Assembly: GCA_009937525.1 (NCBI GenBank)
Contig: JAACFE010000016.1
Location: forward strand, 1-34,114
DNA length: 34,114 nucleotides
Reading direction: 5' to 3'
Source: Gammaproteobacteria bacterium
Lineage (GTDB): Bacteria > Pseudomonadota > Gammaproteobacteria > Steroidobacterales > Woeseiaceae
Under the pieces are notes generated by a model. The model was not told where the DNA came from and searched no databases. It saw only the letters and a program-made list of their open reading frames with translations. The position numbers and the translations under genes are program-made. Shown in pieces: positions 16,296-27,441 of the stretch (position 1 is its first letter; each line of letters starts with the position of its first letter).

Positions 16296-17249
16296 ATGAC
16301 TGAAGAACGCACCCAGCACACTGCACGGATACCCGATGAGCTCGCCGGTCAGAGATTGGACCAGGCGCTGGCCCGGATGTTTCCCGACTATTCGCGCAGC
16401 CGACTCAAGAGCTGGCTGCTCGACGGCTCGGTGCTCATCGATGGTGCCGCCCGGCGCCCCCGCGATCCCGTGCAGGGTGGCGAGAGCGTCGTCCTGAACG
16501 TCACCGCCGATGTCGCCGTACGCGCCGAGCCCGAGCCCATGGCACTCGATGTCGTTTTCGAGGACGATGATCTGCTGGTGGTGAACAAGCCCGCCGGGCT
16601 GGTAGTGCATCCGGGCGCCGGGAACGCAAGCGGCACGCTCATGAACGGCTTGCTTGCGCATGCGCCGCAGCTGGAAACGCTGCCGCGGGCCGGCATCGTT
16701 CACAGGCTCGACAAGGACACGAGTGGCCTGATGCTCGTTGCGAAATCGCTGCCAGCTCATACGGCGCTGGTCCGGGAGCTTGCCGAGCGTGCGATATCCC
16801 GGCAGTACCTCGCGATCTGCAACGGGGTGCTGACCGGCGGCGGCACCATCGACGCGCCCATCGAGCGCCACCCGGTCGATCGCACCCGGATGGCCGTACG
16901 CGATGGCGGCAGGTCCGCGGTAACGCACTACACGGTGGTCGAGCGATTCCGCGCGCACACCCTGGTCAGGGTCGTCCTGGAAACCGGCCGTACTCATCAG
17001 ATTCGCGTGCACTTCGCGTATCGCCGCCATCCGCTGGTCGGCGATCCGGTCTACGGGGGACGGCTCGCCCTGCCGGCCGGGGCGTCAGAGGCGCTTCGGG
17101 AGGTCTTGCGAACGTTCCGGCGCCAGGCGCTGCATGCTGCACGACTTGAACTCAAACACCCCGTCAGCGGCGAGGCACTGGCTTTCGACGTGCCGCCACC
17201 CCTGGATTTCCTGGCGCTGCTGAGAAACTTGCGCGAGGACGTCGGATGA
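16296..17249 (+). CDS. rluD: 23S rRNA pseudouridine(1911/1915/1917) synthase
   Basis: RluD isomerises three uridines in helix 69 of 23S rRNA. The 317-residue product has an N-terminal S4 RNA-binding domain (RLDQALARMFPDYSRSRLKSW) and the RluA-family catalytic domain: VNKPAGLVVHPG, HRLDKDTSGL with catalytic Asp139, and GRTHQIRVHF. The order bamD(minus)-rluD-pgeF is conserved in many gammaproteobacteria, including E. coli. Its TGA overlaps the pgeF ATG (ATGA at 17246-17249). Confidence 0.96.
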   Translation: MTEERTQHTARIPDELAGQRLDQALARMFPDYSRSRLKSWLLDGSVLIDGAARRPRDPVQGGESVVLNVTADVAVRAEPEPMALDVVFEDDDLLVVNKPAGLVVHPGAGNASGTLMNGLLAHAPQLETLPRAGIVHRLDKDTSGLMLVAKSLPAHTALVRELAERAISRQYLAICNGVLTGGGTIDAPIERHPVDRTRMAVRDGGRSAVTHYTVVERFRAHTLVRVVLETGRTHQIRVHFAYRRHPLVGDPVYGGRLALPAGASEALREVLRTFRRQALHAARLELKHPVSGEALAFDVPPPLDFLALLRNLREDVG

Positions 17250-17986
17250 ACACGGAGTGGATCGAGGCCGACTGGCCTGTGTCGACCGGCATCGTCGCGG
17301 GCACCACCACCCGCCGCGGCGGCGTCAGCGACGGAAAGTTCCGCTCCATGAATCTCGGCGCCCACGTCGGGGACGAACGGGAACGGGTGGCCGAGAACCG
17401 GCGGCGCTTCGTCGCGGGCTGCGGCCTGGCGGCGGAGCCGGACTGGCTCGTGCAGGTCCACGGCACCGCCGTTCGCATCGCGGGCGCTGCAGACCCTGTC
17501 GAAGCGGATGCTGCAATCGCGCGAGGGAACGGCGGCATCGTGGCCGTCCTGACGGCAGACTGCCTGCCGATACTCCTTTGTGCAGACAACGGCGATGAGA
17601 TCGCCGCCATTCACGCGGGCTGGCGGGGACTGGCCGCGGGCGTGGTGGCCGCCACCGTAACGCGCATGGATACGCCGCCGGAACGGCTCCTTGCCTGGCT
17701 CGGCCCGGCGATCTCGCAAGCCGCGTTCGAAGTCGGCGACGAGGTGCGGGCGGCATTCGTCGCCGGCGACCCGGGAGCCGAGGCCGGCTTCGTGGCCAAT
17801 GAACGCGGCCGCTGGCAGGCCGACCTTTACCTGCTCGCCCGGCGAAAACTCGACGCGGTGGGCGTCGGCGCGGTATACGGGGGCGGCCTGTGTACCTTCG
17901 GTGACGCCGAGCGCTTCTTCTCGTACCGGCGTGACGGCCAGTGCGGCCGAATGGCCACGTTTATCCACCGCCTGCCACACCTGTAG
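17246..17986 (+). CDS. pgeF: Peptidoglycan editing factor / polyphenol oxidase family protein (YfiH)
   Basis: This 246-residue protein is of the DUF152/Cu-oxidase_4 family. Members have been linked to removal of misincorporated residues from peptidoglycan precursors and to purine nucleoside phosphorylase or adenosine deaminase activity. The metal-binding set His72 (VQVHGT), Cys106 (TADCLP) and His123 (IHAGWRG) is intact, as is GGLCTFGDAERFFSYRRDG. It overlaps rluD by four bases. The last codons, CTG-TAG, lie within the first unit of the tandem repeat at 17980-18055, so the stop codon itself belongs to the repeat. Confidence 0.93.
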   Translation: MNTEWIEADWPVSTGIVAGTTTRRGGVSDGKFRSMNLGAHVGDERERVAENRRRFVAGCGLAAEPDWLVQVHGTAVRIAGAADPVEADAAIARGNGGIVAVLTADCLPILLCADNGDEIAAIHAGWRGLAAGVVAATVTRMDTPPERLLAWLGPAISQAAFEVGDEVRAAFVAGDPGAEAGFVANERGRWQADLYLLARRKLDAVGVGAVYGGGLCTFGDAERFFSYRRDGQCGRMATFIHRLPHL

Positions 17987-18055
17987 GAGCGTGCCTTACC
18001 TGTAGGAGCGTGCCTTACCTGTAGGAGCGTGCCTTACCTGTAGGAGCGTGCCTTT
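17980..18055. repeat. Four tandem copies of a 19-base half-element
   Basis: CCTGTAGGAGCGTGCCTTA is repeated at 17980, 17999, 18018 and 18037; the first three copies are identical and the fourth ends in T. The first copy contains the pgeF stop codon. Each unit is the left half of the palindromic element described at 18040-18102; only the last copy continues into the right half of its hairpin. There are no unique spacers, so it is not a CRISPR. Confidence 0.95.
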
Positions 18056-18102
18056 GGCGCGCGATCGAATGCCGCCGGTCGCGGGTCGAGAACCGCTCCT
18101 AC
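18040..18102. repeat. 63-base composite palindromic element, copy 1
   Basis: Bounded by GTAGGAGC (18040) and GCTCCTAC (ending 18102). The left hairpin is GCGTGCC/GGCGCGC-like and the right hairpin is built on GGTCGAGAACC, joined by about ten bases. It lies between pgeF and the clpB heat-shock promoter. It resembles the GTAGGAGC-type REP sequences known from Pseudomonas and Xanthomonas relatives. Confidence 0.85.
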
Positions 18103-18165
18103 AGTCGTCGAAGAATGCCCCGGTAACCGGTTGCGGTCCGAGAACTGTCCAGATACCTCGCAGCG

Positions 18166-18193
18166 CTTGAAATCGGGGATGCCGACGTCATTT
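18166..18193 (+). promoter_or_regulatory. Sigma32-type heat-shock promoter of clpB
   Basis: CTTGAAA (18166-18172), a 13-base spacer and CGTCATTT (18186-18193). The -35 is a full match to the sigma32 consensus CTTGAAA; the -10 matches CCCCATnT at five of seven fixed positions. It is 30 bases from the clpB ATG, giving a short leader that contains GAGGGA (18211-18216). This fits the heat-shock control known for clpB. Confidence 0.72.
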
Positions 18194-18222: not shown

Positions 18223-20802
18223 ATGCGTCTGGACAAACTCACCAGCAAGTTTCAAATGGCCCTGGCGGATGCGCAGTCACTGGCGGTCGGCCAGGACCAC
18301 CAGTTCATCGAGCCCGCCCACGTCATGGTTGCGCTCCTGGACCAGCAGGGCGGCAGTGTGCGCGGACTGTTGACCAAGGCGGGCGGAAACGTAAACCTGC
18401 TGCGCTCCCAGCTCGGCGATGCGATCGACCGGGTGCCAAGGGTCGAGGGTGCGGGCGGCGATGTTCATTTCAGCAATGATCTCGGCAAGCTTTTCAACAT
18501 CACCGACAAGCTTGCTCAGAAGCGCGACGATCAGTACATCTCCAGCGAACTCTTCGTGCTGGCCGCCCTCGACGACAGCTCCCCGCTGAAGGGCATCTTC
18601 GAGCAGGCCGGCATGGTCCGCGGTGCGGTCGAAAAAGCGATCGACGATCTGCGTGGCGGGCAACAGGTCGACGATCCGAACGCGGAAGACACCCGCCAGG
18701 CGCTCGAGCGCTACACGATCGACCTGACGGAGCGCGCCGAACAGGGCAAGCTCGACCCGATCATCGGCCGCGACGAGGAGATCAGGCGCACGATCCAGAT
18801 CCTGCAGCGCCGCACCAAGAACAATCCCGTGCTGATCGGGGAGCCCGGCGTGGGCAAGACCGCGATCGTCGAGGGACTCGCGCAACGCATCGTCAACAAC
18901 GAGGTGCCGGAGGGGCTGCGGGGCAAGCGCATCCTTTCGCTGGACATGGGCGCACTGATTGCGGGCGCGAAGTTTCGTGGCGAATTCGAAGAGCGCCTGA
19001 AGGCCGTTCTCAACGACCTCGCCAAGCAGGAAGGCCAGATCATCCTGTTTATCGACGAGCTTCACACGATGGTGGGCGCCGGCAAGGCCGAAGGCTCGAT
19101 GGACGCCGGCAACATGCTCAAGCCGGCGCTCGCGCGCGGCGAGCTCCATTGCGTAGGCGCCACGACGCTCGACGAATATCGCAAGTACGTCGAGAAGGAT
19201 GCGGCGCTGGAGCGCCGCTTCCAGCAGGTGCTCGTTGACGAGCCGACGGTCGAGGACACCATTGCGATACTGCGCGGCCTCAAGGAACGCTACGAGATCC
19301 ACCACGGGGTCGAGATTACCGACCCGGCGATTGTTGCCGCGGCAACGCTCTCGCATCGCTACATCAGCGGCCGCAAGCTGCCGGACAAGGCGATCGACCT
19401 CGTTGACGAGGCGGCTTCGCGGATCCGCATCGAGATCGATTCGAAGCCCGAGAGCATGGACCGGCTCGAGCGCCGCATCATCCAGCTCAAAATCGAGCGC
19501 GAAGCTTTGAAGAAGGAATCGGACGACGCCTCGAAGAAGCGACTCGAGGACCTCGAATCACAGCTCGCCGAGCTGGAGCGCGAGTATTCGGACCTCGAGG
19601 AAATCTGGAAATCCGAGAAGGCCGCGATGCAGGGCACGGCGCACATCAAGGAGGAGCTCGAGCGGGCGCGCCTCGAGCTCGAAACCGCGCACCGCGCCAA
19701 CGACCTGGCGCGCATGTCTGAGCTGCAGTACGGCCGGATTCCCGAACTCGAGAAACAGCTCGCCGAAGCGGCGAGCGCGGAGCAACGTGAGACGACGTTG
19801 CTGCGCAACAACGTGACCGAAGAGGAAGTTGCGGAGATCGTTTCGAAATGGACCGGTATACCGGTTGCCAAGATGCTCGAAGGCGAAAAGGAAAAGCTGC
19901 TGCAGATGGAGTCTGTCGTGCAGGAGCGGGTCGTCGGCCAGGAAGAGGCGGTGACGGCAGTTGCCAATGCGATCCGCCGCTCCCGTGCCGGACTCTCGGA
20001 TCCGCGCCGTCCGATCGGCTCCTTCCTGTTCCTGGGCCCGACCGGTGTTGGCAAGACCGAACTCACCAAGGCGCTTGCCAGTTTCCTGTTCGACACCGAC
20101 GACGCGATGGTGCGGCTCGACATGTCGGAGTTCATGGAAAAACACTCGGTCGCGCGCCTGATCGGCGCACCACCGGGCTACGTCGGCTATGAGGAGGGCG
20201 GATATCTCACGGAGGCCGTGCGGCGGCGTCCTTACTCGGTGATCCTGTTCGACGAAATAGAGAAGGCGCACCCGGACGTTTTTAATGTGCTGCTGCAGGT
20301 GCTCGACGACGGGCGCCTGACGGACGGGCAGGGCCGGACCGTCGATTTTCGCAATACCGTCATCGTCATGACGTCCAACCTCGGATCGCAGATGATCCAG
20401 GAGATGGCCGGCGAGGAACACTACGATGCGATGAAGCAGGCGGTGATGGACGTCGTCGGGCAGCACTTCCGGCCCGAATTCATCAATCGCGTGGACGACG
20501 TGGTCGTATTCCACCCGCTCAGCCGGGAACACATCCGCAAGATCGTCGACATTCAGCTCGGCCACCTGCACGATCGGCTCGCGGACCGCGATATGCGTCT
20601 CCACCTGTCCGAAGCGGCGCGCGACAAGCTTGCCGAAGCGGGCTTCGATCCCGTGTACGGAGCAAGGCCGCTGAAGCGGGCGATCCAGCAGCAGGTGGAA
20701 AATCCGCTGGCGCAGGAAATCCTGCAGGGTAAGTTCAAACCGGGCGACGTCATCGAGGTTGGCGTCGATCGGGACCGGCTCGATTTCCAGAACGCCGCGT
20801 GA
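18223..20802 (+). CDS. clpB: ATP-dependent disaggregase ClpB
   Basis: ClpB is a hexameric Hsp100 chaperone that pulls polypeptides from aggregates together with DnaK. The 859-residue product begins [20 protein letters not shown] and contains the Clp N-domain repeats (1-145), the first AAA+ module with Walker A GEPGVGKT (206-213) and Walker [21 protein letters not shown], the long coiled-coil middle domain (about 400-525) that distinguishes ClpB from ClpA/ClpC, and the second AAA+ module with GPTGVGKTE (605-613) and [21 protein letters not shown] lies six bases before the ATG. It is preceded by a sigma32-like promoter and followed by palindromic elements. Complete and ordinary. Confidence 0.98.
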
Positions 20803-24860: not shown

Positions 24861-24892
24861 GCCCGCGATCGCGGTTCGAGAACCGCTCCTAC
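24857..24892. repeat. 36-base deletion form of the palindromic element between convergent hydrolase and mutS
   Basis: It begins GTAGG (24857), continues as CGCGATCGCGG and the hairpin GCGGTTCGAGAACCGC, and ends GCTCCTAC (24892). Compared with the 63-base copies, it lacks most of the left hairpin. The left-end TAG stops the hydrolase on the plus strand and the right-end CTA (TAG in reverse) stops mutS on the minus strand. The 7-base stem could act as a terminator for both. Confidence 0.78.
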
Positions 24893-27441
24893 AGATCTTT
24901 CAGCTTGTACAGCGCCTCGAGCGCCTGCCGGGGTGTCATCGAATCCGGGTCCAGCTCTTCCAGCGCATCGCGCAGTTCGTCGGCTCGTGGTTCTGCTGCG
25001 GGTCCCAGCGGCAGCTGGGCCTGCGGGCTCTGAGTCAGCGCCTGCTGGTGAGACTCCAGTGCCGCAAGATAGTCCCGGGCGCGCTGCACGACGTGCCCGG
25101 GCACGCCGGCGAGTGCCGCGACCTGGAGGCCGTAGCTCTGGTTCGCAGGGCCGGGCTTGACGGCATGCAGGAACACCAGCCGGCCCTCGTGTTCGGTGGC
25201 ATCGAGATGCACGTTGCGGCAGGCCGGCAGCTCGTCGGCCAGCGCGGTGAGTTCGAAGTAATGCGTCGCGAACAGCGTGAAGGCGCGGGCTTTCTCGCCC
25301 ATGTAGTGCGCCGCGGCCCACGCCAGCGACAGGCCGTCGAAGGTGCTGGTGCCGCGCCCGATCTCGTCCATCAGCACCAGGCTCTGTGCAGTGGCGTTAT
25401 TCAGGATCGTCGCTGTCTCCGTCATCTCGACCATGAAGGTCGACCGTCCGCCCGCGATGTCGTCGGAGGCGCCGATGCGCGTGAAGATCCGGTCGAGCGG
25501 CCCGATGCGCAGCGAATCCGCCGGCACGAAACTGCCGATGTGGGCGAGTATTGCGATGAGCGCGGTCTGCCGCATGTACGTCGACTTGCCGCCCATGTTG
25601 GGGCCGGTAATGACGATCAGCCGCTGCTCGTCGGTCAGCGCCAGGTCGTTGGCAACGAACGGCGTATCGATCACCTGTTCGACCACCAGGTGCCGACCGC
25701 CCCGGATCTCGATGCACGGCTCCTCGGCAAGCTCCGGCTTGCTGAGGCGCAGGCTATCGGCACGCTCGGCGAAGCACAGGAGCACGTCCAGTTCGGCGAC
25801 GGCGAACGCGGATTGCTGCAACCCGGGAAGCGTTTCGTGCAGGAGTTCCAGTAATCGCTCGTAGAGATACTTTTCTCGCGCAAGCGCGCGTTCCCGGGCG
25901 CTCAGGACCTTGTCCTCGAACGTCTTCAGCTCCGGCGTGATGTATCGCTCGGCCGCTTTCAGGGTCTGCCGGCGAACGTAATCGTCGGGCGCCTTGTCCG
26001 CCTGGCCCTTGCTGATTTCTATGTAATAGCCATGCACGCGGTTGTAGCCGAGTTTCAGCGTTGGGATGCCGGTGCGTTGCTTTTCGCGTGCCTCGAGATC
26101 CAGCAGGAATTGGTCGGCGTTGTCCGCGATGGCGCGCAGTTCATCCAGTTCGTCGTCGTAACTGTCTGCGATGACGCCGCCGTCACGGATCAGCATCGGT
26201 GGATTGTCGATGATCGCATCGGCGAGCAACTGCTGCTCACGATGATGCGGGTCGATCTGCTCACGCAGGGCATGGAGTCGCGGTGACTGGATGCTCGAAA
26301 GCTGTTTACGCAACGCCGGCAGGCGGGACAGCGCCTCGCACAACTGGCGCAGGTCACGCGGCCTCGCCGAGCGCAGTGCGACGCGCGCCAGGATGCGCTC
26401 GATATCCCCGATGCCGTGCAGCAGCGGCTGCAGGACGTCGTTGGCGCCGCCGGTGATCATGGCGTCCACGGCCTGGAAGCGTCCCTTCAGCACGGCGGGA
26501 TCTCGCAACGGCCTCTGAATCCAGCGGCGCAGCAGCCGGCTGCCCATGGGGCTCTGGCAGCGATCCATCACGCCCGCCAGCGTGTGCTGGTCATGTCCGC
26601 TGAGCGACGCGTGGAGCTCCAGGTTGCGCCGTGTGGGCCCATCCATAATGACGGCGTCTTCGCGGCGTTCCACCGTGATCGCCTGCAGGTGCGGCAGGGA
26701 GGCTTTCTGGGTATCGCTGACGTATTGCAGCAATGCGCCGGCCGCCGCGACGCCGCGCGGAAACGCGTCGCAACCGAAACCCGACAGGTCGCGGGTGCCG
26801 AACTGCCTGCACAGGAGCCGGGTTGCGGCGTCGAGTTCGAAGTGCCAGGGTGGGCGATGCGTTATGCGCACGCCTTCGCCAATTCGACGCGCATCGACCT
26901 GGTCTTCGTCGACGATGAGCTCCGCAGGCCGAAGCCGCTCGAGTTCGCCGGCAATCGCTTCTCCGTCTGCCACCTCGGTGAGCCGGAATCGGCCGCCCGC
27001 AAGGTCCAGCCATGCGAGACCGATTCCTTCGTTGTCGGCAAACATCGCGGCGACCAGGTTGTCGCGGCTTTCGGACAACAACGCTTCGTCGGTGAGCGTA
27101 CCCGGCGTCACGATACGGGTGACCTTGCGCTCGACAGGACCCTTGCTCGTCGCCGGGTCTCCGATTTGTTCGCATATCGCCACTGACTCGCCTTTCTTCA
27201 CGAGCTTTGCGAGATAATTTTCGGCGGCGTGATAGGGCACCCCTGCCATCGGGATCGGGTTGCCCGCCGACTTGCCGCGTGACGTCAGGGTGATGTCCAG
27301 AAGCGCGGCAGCGCGCTTCGCATCGTCGTAAAAGAGCTCATAGAAGTCCCCCATGCGGTAGAAGACGAGCATATCCGGATGCTCGGCCTTGATCGCCAGG
27401 TACTGGCGCATCATCGGGGTGTGAACGGCGCTGATTTCCAT
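24889..27441 (-). CDS. mutS: DNA mismatch repair protein MutS
   Basis: MutS recognises mispairs and small loops and recruits MutL. The 850-residue protein has the mismatch-binding Phe33-x-Glu35 (MGDFYELF), connector, core and clamp domains, and an ABC-type ATPase with Walker [10 protein letters not shown] (about 612-620), TFMVEMTET and [14 protein letters not shown]. The C-terminal [20 protein letters not shown] matches the usual tetramerisation end, so nothing has been lost although its stop codon lies in the palindromic element. GAGAAG precedes the ATG. The start is only 16 bases from that of the divergent glycosyltransferase gene. Confidence 0.98.

Follow-up and report, generated by a model that had tools for sequence, protein, structure and literature searches.

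The elements closest to the locus described here are the REPs of the GTAG super-family (Di Nocera et al., 2013; PMC3733652). According to the portion of that account available to us, these elements carry a GTAG tag beside a short stem-loop, form head-to-head dimers and clusters, and lend the TAG of the tag to flanking genes as a stop codon. The locus shares each of these features, so that stop codons supplied by the tag are already on record. The reiterated units reported for the super-family are singletons or dimers together with their flanks, unlike the half units found here, and the words 'half', 'truncated' and 'slippage' are absent from the main text of PMC3733652. Similarly, in the accessible text on the REPINs of Pseudomonas fluorescens SBW25, REP pairs behave as one unit and some lie with their flanks in ordered tandem arrays (PMC3116915), whereas the array described here repeats less than one REP, the hairpin being cut at its loop. 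BIME-2 arrays also place palindromic units in tandem; in contrast to our array, their units, as far as the available description goes, are BIME-1-like and contain complete REPs (PMC2817692). Finally, polymerases are able to slip on a single-stranded hairpin template, which resembles the process that we propose below, although the system in the part of that work open to us is an in vitro one with archaeal polymerases (PMC4134008). In the accessible parts of the open-access literature on REPs and slippage, we found no description of half-REP arrays.

The window, by which we mean the whole stretch of 34,114 nt that was analysed, belongs to contig C99, one of the 167 contigs of a 3.0 Mb assembly that is 95.6% complete. 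Tandem Repeats Finder reported a single array with a score of at least 50 in the window, at 17979-18054 on the plus strand, with a period of 19, 4.0 copies, 100% matches and the unit ACCTGTAGGAGCGTGCCTT. This four-unit array is real in the assembly, and it agrees with the four 19-base units of an earlier note made from the sequence alone. On rechecking, all four units are identical when the phase begins at 17979; the earlier note counted three because of its chosen phase, 17980-18055, in which unit 4 differs at the final base. The same note held that the left arm of a palindromic element had been tandemly amplified and that only the fourth unit completes the hairpin, and both statements are borne out: GTAGGAGCGTGCCTT occurs in four exact copies, at 17983, 18002, 18021 and 18040, and a right arm is present only after the copy at 18040 (GCGTGCC TTT GGCGCGC, one mismatch). 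When up to two mismatches are allowed, the window contains 5 matches to GTAGGAGCGTGCCTT; 100 shuffles average 0.08, and none of them reaches 5. Units 1-3 end within the hairpin loop, after the second T of TTT, and the 19-bp unit carries four flank bases, ACCT. Upstream of the array, GCCTGCC stands in the same 19-bp register as the GCGTGCC of the unit and matches it at 6 of 7 bases. The exact repeat runs for 4.0 units, and the first junction therefore has no exact microhomology. Recent slippage or unequal recombination had been suggested as the cause; such identical units are consistent with a recent expansion, and it is from their identity that we infer recency.

The array lies between two plus-strand genes, pgeF at 17246-17986 (TIGR00726, 171 bits against a cut-off of 141) and clpB at 18223-20802 (TIGR03346, 1474 bits against a cut-off of 1232). 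The open reading frame 17246-17986 ends in a TAG at 17984-17986 that is part of the GTAG of the first array unit, so that this unit supplies the pgeF stop codon. The earlier note had overlooked this stop codon, as it had the GTAG-type REP pair that follows the array and the repetition of half-elements elsewhere in the genus. The window holds a second instance of a stop codon supplied by a REP: mutS (TIGR01070), on the minus strand at 24889-27441, ends in the TAG of an GTAGGAGCG element at 24884-24893.

The fourth unit opens a complete left REP at 18040-18064 on the plus strand, with a GTAG tag, the stem GCGTGCC/GGCGCGC and the loop TTT. An inverted right REP follows at 18079-18102 on the minus strand, with the stem GCGGTTC/GACCCGC and the loop TC. 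The whole head-to-head pair spans 18038-18104, with outer arms CTGTAGGAGCG/CGCTCCTACAG. In both REPs an unpaired GTAG tag stands 5' of a short palindrome, as in GTAG-type REPs, and copies are dispersed through the genome in large number, although both stems fail a strict exact-pair test because each 7-bp stem has one mismatch. Two close REPs in inverse orientation are also the arrangement of a REPIN. However, a cognate RAYT gene was not detected in the genome of the organism (G000, 95.6% complete), in which the REP transposase family PF01797 has no match, and we therefore call the pair REPIN-like. Unlike in BIME-2 or a tandem REP cluster, the repeated unit contains no complete REP, ACCTGTAGGAGCGTGCCTT being without a right arm. 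The array is thus a half-REP repeat joined to an ordinary REPIN-like pair. The stretch 18036-18110, treated as single-stranded DNA, has a folding energy of -20.5 kcal/mol (z -2.70; 3 of 200 shuffles equally good). A single 19-bp unit does not fold (0 kcal/mol), and the 76-bp array alone folds no better than its own shuffles (z -0.25). No Rfam family reached its gathering score anywhere in the window.

The pair is one member of a large family. The pattern TGTAGGAGCG has 136 copies in the organism's own genome, and its reversed form has 18. Near many of the first 100 of these places, rather than over the whole genome, we collected 123 distinct GTAGGAGCG sites. An exact stem of at least 5 pairs is present at 101 of the 123, with the loop at offset 13 in 94 of those 101, and 58 of the 123 have an inverted partner 30-110 nt away. 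The base before GTAG is T at 98 of these sites, and CT precedes it at 68. The family therefore matches the GTAG super-family of REPs in a REPIN-like arrangement. Whole REP elements are also tandemly repeated in this genome, for example in contigs C67 (64 bp), C116 (73 bp) and C127 (65 bp).

Among 60 genomes searched, the organism's own included, 53 gave a pgeF match, and we compared the best 30 of these 53 loci. In 23 of the best 30, pgeF and clpB are adjacent, and in 4 of the 23 adjacent pairs a REP core lies between the two genes: the window, G003 (with a GTTG head), G032 and G025. The window's array is absent from the intergenic regions of the other three. G025 has a single REP pair and G003 a single GTTG-headed pair. 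G032 (L060) has a complete REP with a GTTG head on the clpB side and on the opposite strand, preceded by one 13-bp half unit that is likewise GTTG-headed; this half unit and REP adjoin a clpB promoter-like site. By eye, the pgeF frame of G032 and of G025 ends at the TAG of a GTAG, as in the window. Downstream of our array, CTTGAAA ... CGTCATTT at 18166-18193 on the plus strand is what we take to be a putative sigma-32-like clpB promoter, on a consensus that was applied with no control. The earlier note placed the array 'immediately upstream' of the clpB heat-shock promoter, which is overstated: 111 bases separate it from CTTGAAA (18166-18172), the REPIN-like pair lies in between, and a similar site is present in relatives that lack the array. 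Our own regular expression, built on the same consensus and run without a control, found a sigma-32-like site in 12 of the 23 intergenic regions, and 8 of these 12 regions lack a REP core. Because of the distance and the promoter-like site in array-free relatives, a role of the array in the clpB promoter was set aside.

Half units recur across the genus. In a collection holding one genome per species, we searched the 73 genomes of the genus for GTAGGAGC followed by a second GTAGGAGC within 31 bases, which gave 134 pairs in 28 genomes against 40 for the reversed pattern (summed by hand); this control is unmatched in base use, the single reversed 8-mer being commoner than GTAGGAGC in most genomes, and with 40 against 134 some of the wide-gap pairs may be due to chance. 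When the gap was limited to 13 and the pattern had to end in TGTAGGAGC, 45 matches were obtained, against 3 with the pattern reversed. In the wide search, 59 of the 134 first units have a complete hairpin and measure at least 23 bp. The other 75 do not, 12 of them being at least 21 bp and 63 being 11-19 bp long. Of these 63 truncated units, 47 measure 12-14 bp, where the loop of the next REP begins (at offset 12 in most of the rows compared and at 13 in the organism's own genome). The peak has a binomial p of 2e-16, or of 5e-8 for distinct strings (26 of 39), under a uniform null of 9-20 bp that was our own choice and with rows of one array that are not independent. By hand count, the truncated units are spread over 20 genomes, the organism's own and 19 other assemblies; G085 contributes 21 and G086 9, together 30, and without these two genomes 23 of 33 are 12-14 bp long. 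The window's three junctions are counted among the 63, at 19 bp and hence off the peak. Other multi-unit arrays also end in a full REP, with four 13-bp units in G086:C11 and three units each in G085:C132 and G085:C69. Two REPs of G086 (L198, L213) carry in their hairpin loops, between GGCTT and AGCCGCGA, one and the same 21-base stretch.

Exact GTAGGAGC undercounts such arrays, because others with GTTG, GCAG and GTGG heads are visible in the flanks. Over the class, at least 20 of 369 genomes have any GTAGGAGC pair, the organism's own and G095 of the same genus among them; by eye, most of the others among the matches listed are not half REPs, and G100, of another family, has among the matches listed several half units in which GTAGGAGCGGCTTT is followed by GTAGGAGC. 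The half and the copy that follows it do not carry the same four bases behind GTAGGAGC at 33 of the 74 half-unit junctions compared, some of which come from genomes that are not of this genus (G100, G355 and G230). Half units are also present in four genomes without a detected RAYT, G000, G025, G036 and G074 (96, 85, 76 and 82% complete, respectively), and half units may thus arise without a resident transposase. For the mirror case, tandem right halves with RGCCGCGA-type stems only, a hand sum over the 73 genomes gave 132 matches against 76 for the reversed pattern. The excess is largest in G085 (16 against 1), with 7 against 0 in G063. As the right-half matches outside G085 may or may not be REPs, a left/right asymmetry of half-unit repeats is at most suggested.

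The stop codon supplied to pgeF has counterparts at other half units. At 31 of 49 half-unit loci, the window itself included, the first GTAG ends an open frame of at least 60 codons, against a mean of 16.5 for the two remaining frames. The single GTAGs of these loci end an open frame in 30 of 111 cases against 13.5. However, single GTAGs of the organism's own genome end frames in 38 of 118 cases against 34, with no clear excess, and stop-codon enrichment as a general rule was therefore dropped. By eye, half-REPs occur at apparently the same gene ends in different species: L112 (G080) and L195 (G074) have frames ending in DLSRYIL, and L114 (G018) and L123 (G013) have similar YSKK tails before the TAG.

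We believe that the array probably, if only just, began with slippage or breakage at an extruded REP hairpin, followed by ordinary repeat expansion. The starting point would be a GTAG-type REP pair between pgeF and clpB whose tag overlaps the pgeF stop codon and whose left REP could fold into a hairpin as single-stranded DNA. In the course of replication or repair, synthesis may have halted in the loop of this hairpin and resumed at its foot, directly ahead of GTAG, which would leave a half-element 5' of an intact REP. The resulting 19-bp direct repeat could then have expanded to four units by ordinary slippage. A break in the loop together with a restart just before GTAG suggests a strand that stops at the hairpin tip and restarts at the base. 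The break point in the TTT loop, the dispersed family, the 12-14 bp peak, the narrow-gap matches, the other multi-unit arrays, the half units in genomes with no detected RAYT and the upstream GCCTGCC in register with the unit count in favour of this origin. On the other side are the window's own 19-bp unit, which with its ACCT flank is off the peak, and its first junction, which is free of exact microhomology. The junctions with differing bases count against pure duplication, because a simple duplication needs later mutation to produce them. Slippage would be expected to be roughly symmetrical, and the right-half result is counted against it, as are the control of the wide search and the mismatched stems of the window. 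Apart from the stop codon that the first gives to pgeF, the half units are probably functionless.

Junctions between REPs with different stems would be accounted for by RAYT (TnpA-REP) activity, with cleavage at a CT within or close to the loop of one REP and at the CT directly 5' of GTAG in another REP or a sister copy, and joining of the ends to give a left half and a full REP. TnpA-REP enzymes cut at CT and recognise GTAG-tagged hairpins, as reported in the accessible part of PMC8266576. The CT that precedes GTAG at more than half of the sites examined in the organism's own genome is consistent with such cutting. Furthermore, PF01797 is present in 39 of 61 genomes of the genus, the organism's own being included in the total, and its genes lie a few hundred bases from half-REP arrays in G084:C93 (L233) and G085:C100 (L234). 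A CT end is found in 30 of the 63 truncated units against 9 of the 59 complete ones; this excess is confounded, however, by the many left stems that have CT or CCT as their last bases, and 33 of the 63 end in something other than CT. PF01797 is also unmatched in the organism's own genome and in three less complete genomes with half units. We consider this route unlikely, though not negligible, and favour slippage or breakage at the hairpin tip because many stems supply the CT themselves and the four half-unit genomes have no detectable RAYT. The differing stems would also be explained if the half units arose by deletion and not duplication, with loss from the first loop to the second GTAG of head-to-tail tandem REPs and retention by selection of the half that carries the stop codon of a gene. 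Head-to-tail pairs with a complete first unit are common (59 of 134), and both the half-unit loci and their single GTAGs lie at open-frame ends more often than in the comparison frames. In contrast, a deletion leaves unexplained the four identical units, ACCT flank included, in the window, and single GTAGs of the organism's own genome have no clear excess of stop codons; we regard this origin as doubtful. Insertion of a REP into the loop of another was rejected, since the expected downstream right half was not seen by eye in the flanks inspected.

It is highly improbable that the four units are a graph loop of the metagenome assembly. The assembly is fragmented, and REPs lie at the ends of contigs C67, C97 and C115 and at the starts of C118, which begins in one, and C55, which begins within ten bases of one, so that REPs look like assembly break points. 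However, the array, at 76 bp, is shorter than a usual short read, and a further 19 assemblies of the genus contain truncated units. Faced with such loops, assemblers are more prone to break or collapse them than to expand them. We give hardly any credence to the idea that the array works as a variable-number switch for clpB or for the pgeF mRNA. Ribosomes in E. coli can be stalled by a REP that lies no more than 15 nt from a stop codon, according to the available text of PMC12306157, and the extra units move the hairpin away from the pgeF stop codon, from 2 bases between stop and stem with a single unit to 59. The single unit does not fold, though, and the sigma-32-like site is both distant from the array and present in relatives that have none.

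A broader reading, possible but held only tentatively, is that the tip of the GTAG-REP hairpin is a recurrent break point and that half-REPs, linked at the loop to the foot of a second REP, are a general class of rearrangement across many species, made not by random slippage but by an enzyme-like, two-ended reaction (RAYT cleavage, or a hairpin-tip nuclease followed by joining) and often preserved through the stop codon that the half gives to a gene. For the pgeF-clpB locus alone the consequence is small: a longer pgeF 3' end and a stop codon supplied by a repeat. What is worth following is the general footprint, in which half-REPs are severed at the tip of the hairpin. Bacterial genomes commonly contain REPs and REPINs, and half-REP junctions at the hairpin loop could serve as a sequence footprint that tells polymerase slippage, cutting at the tip and RAYT cleavage apart.
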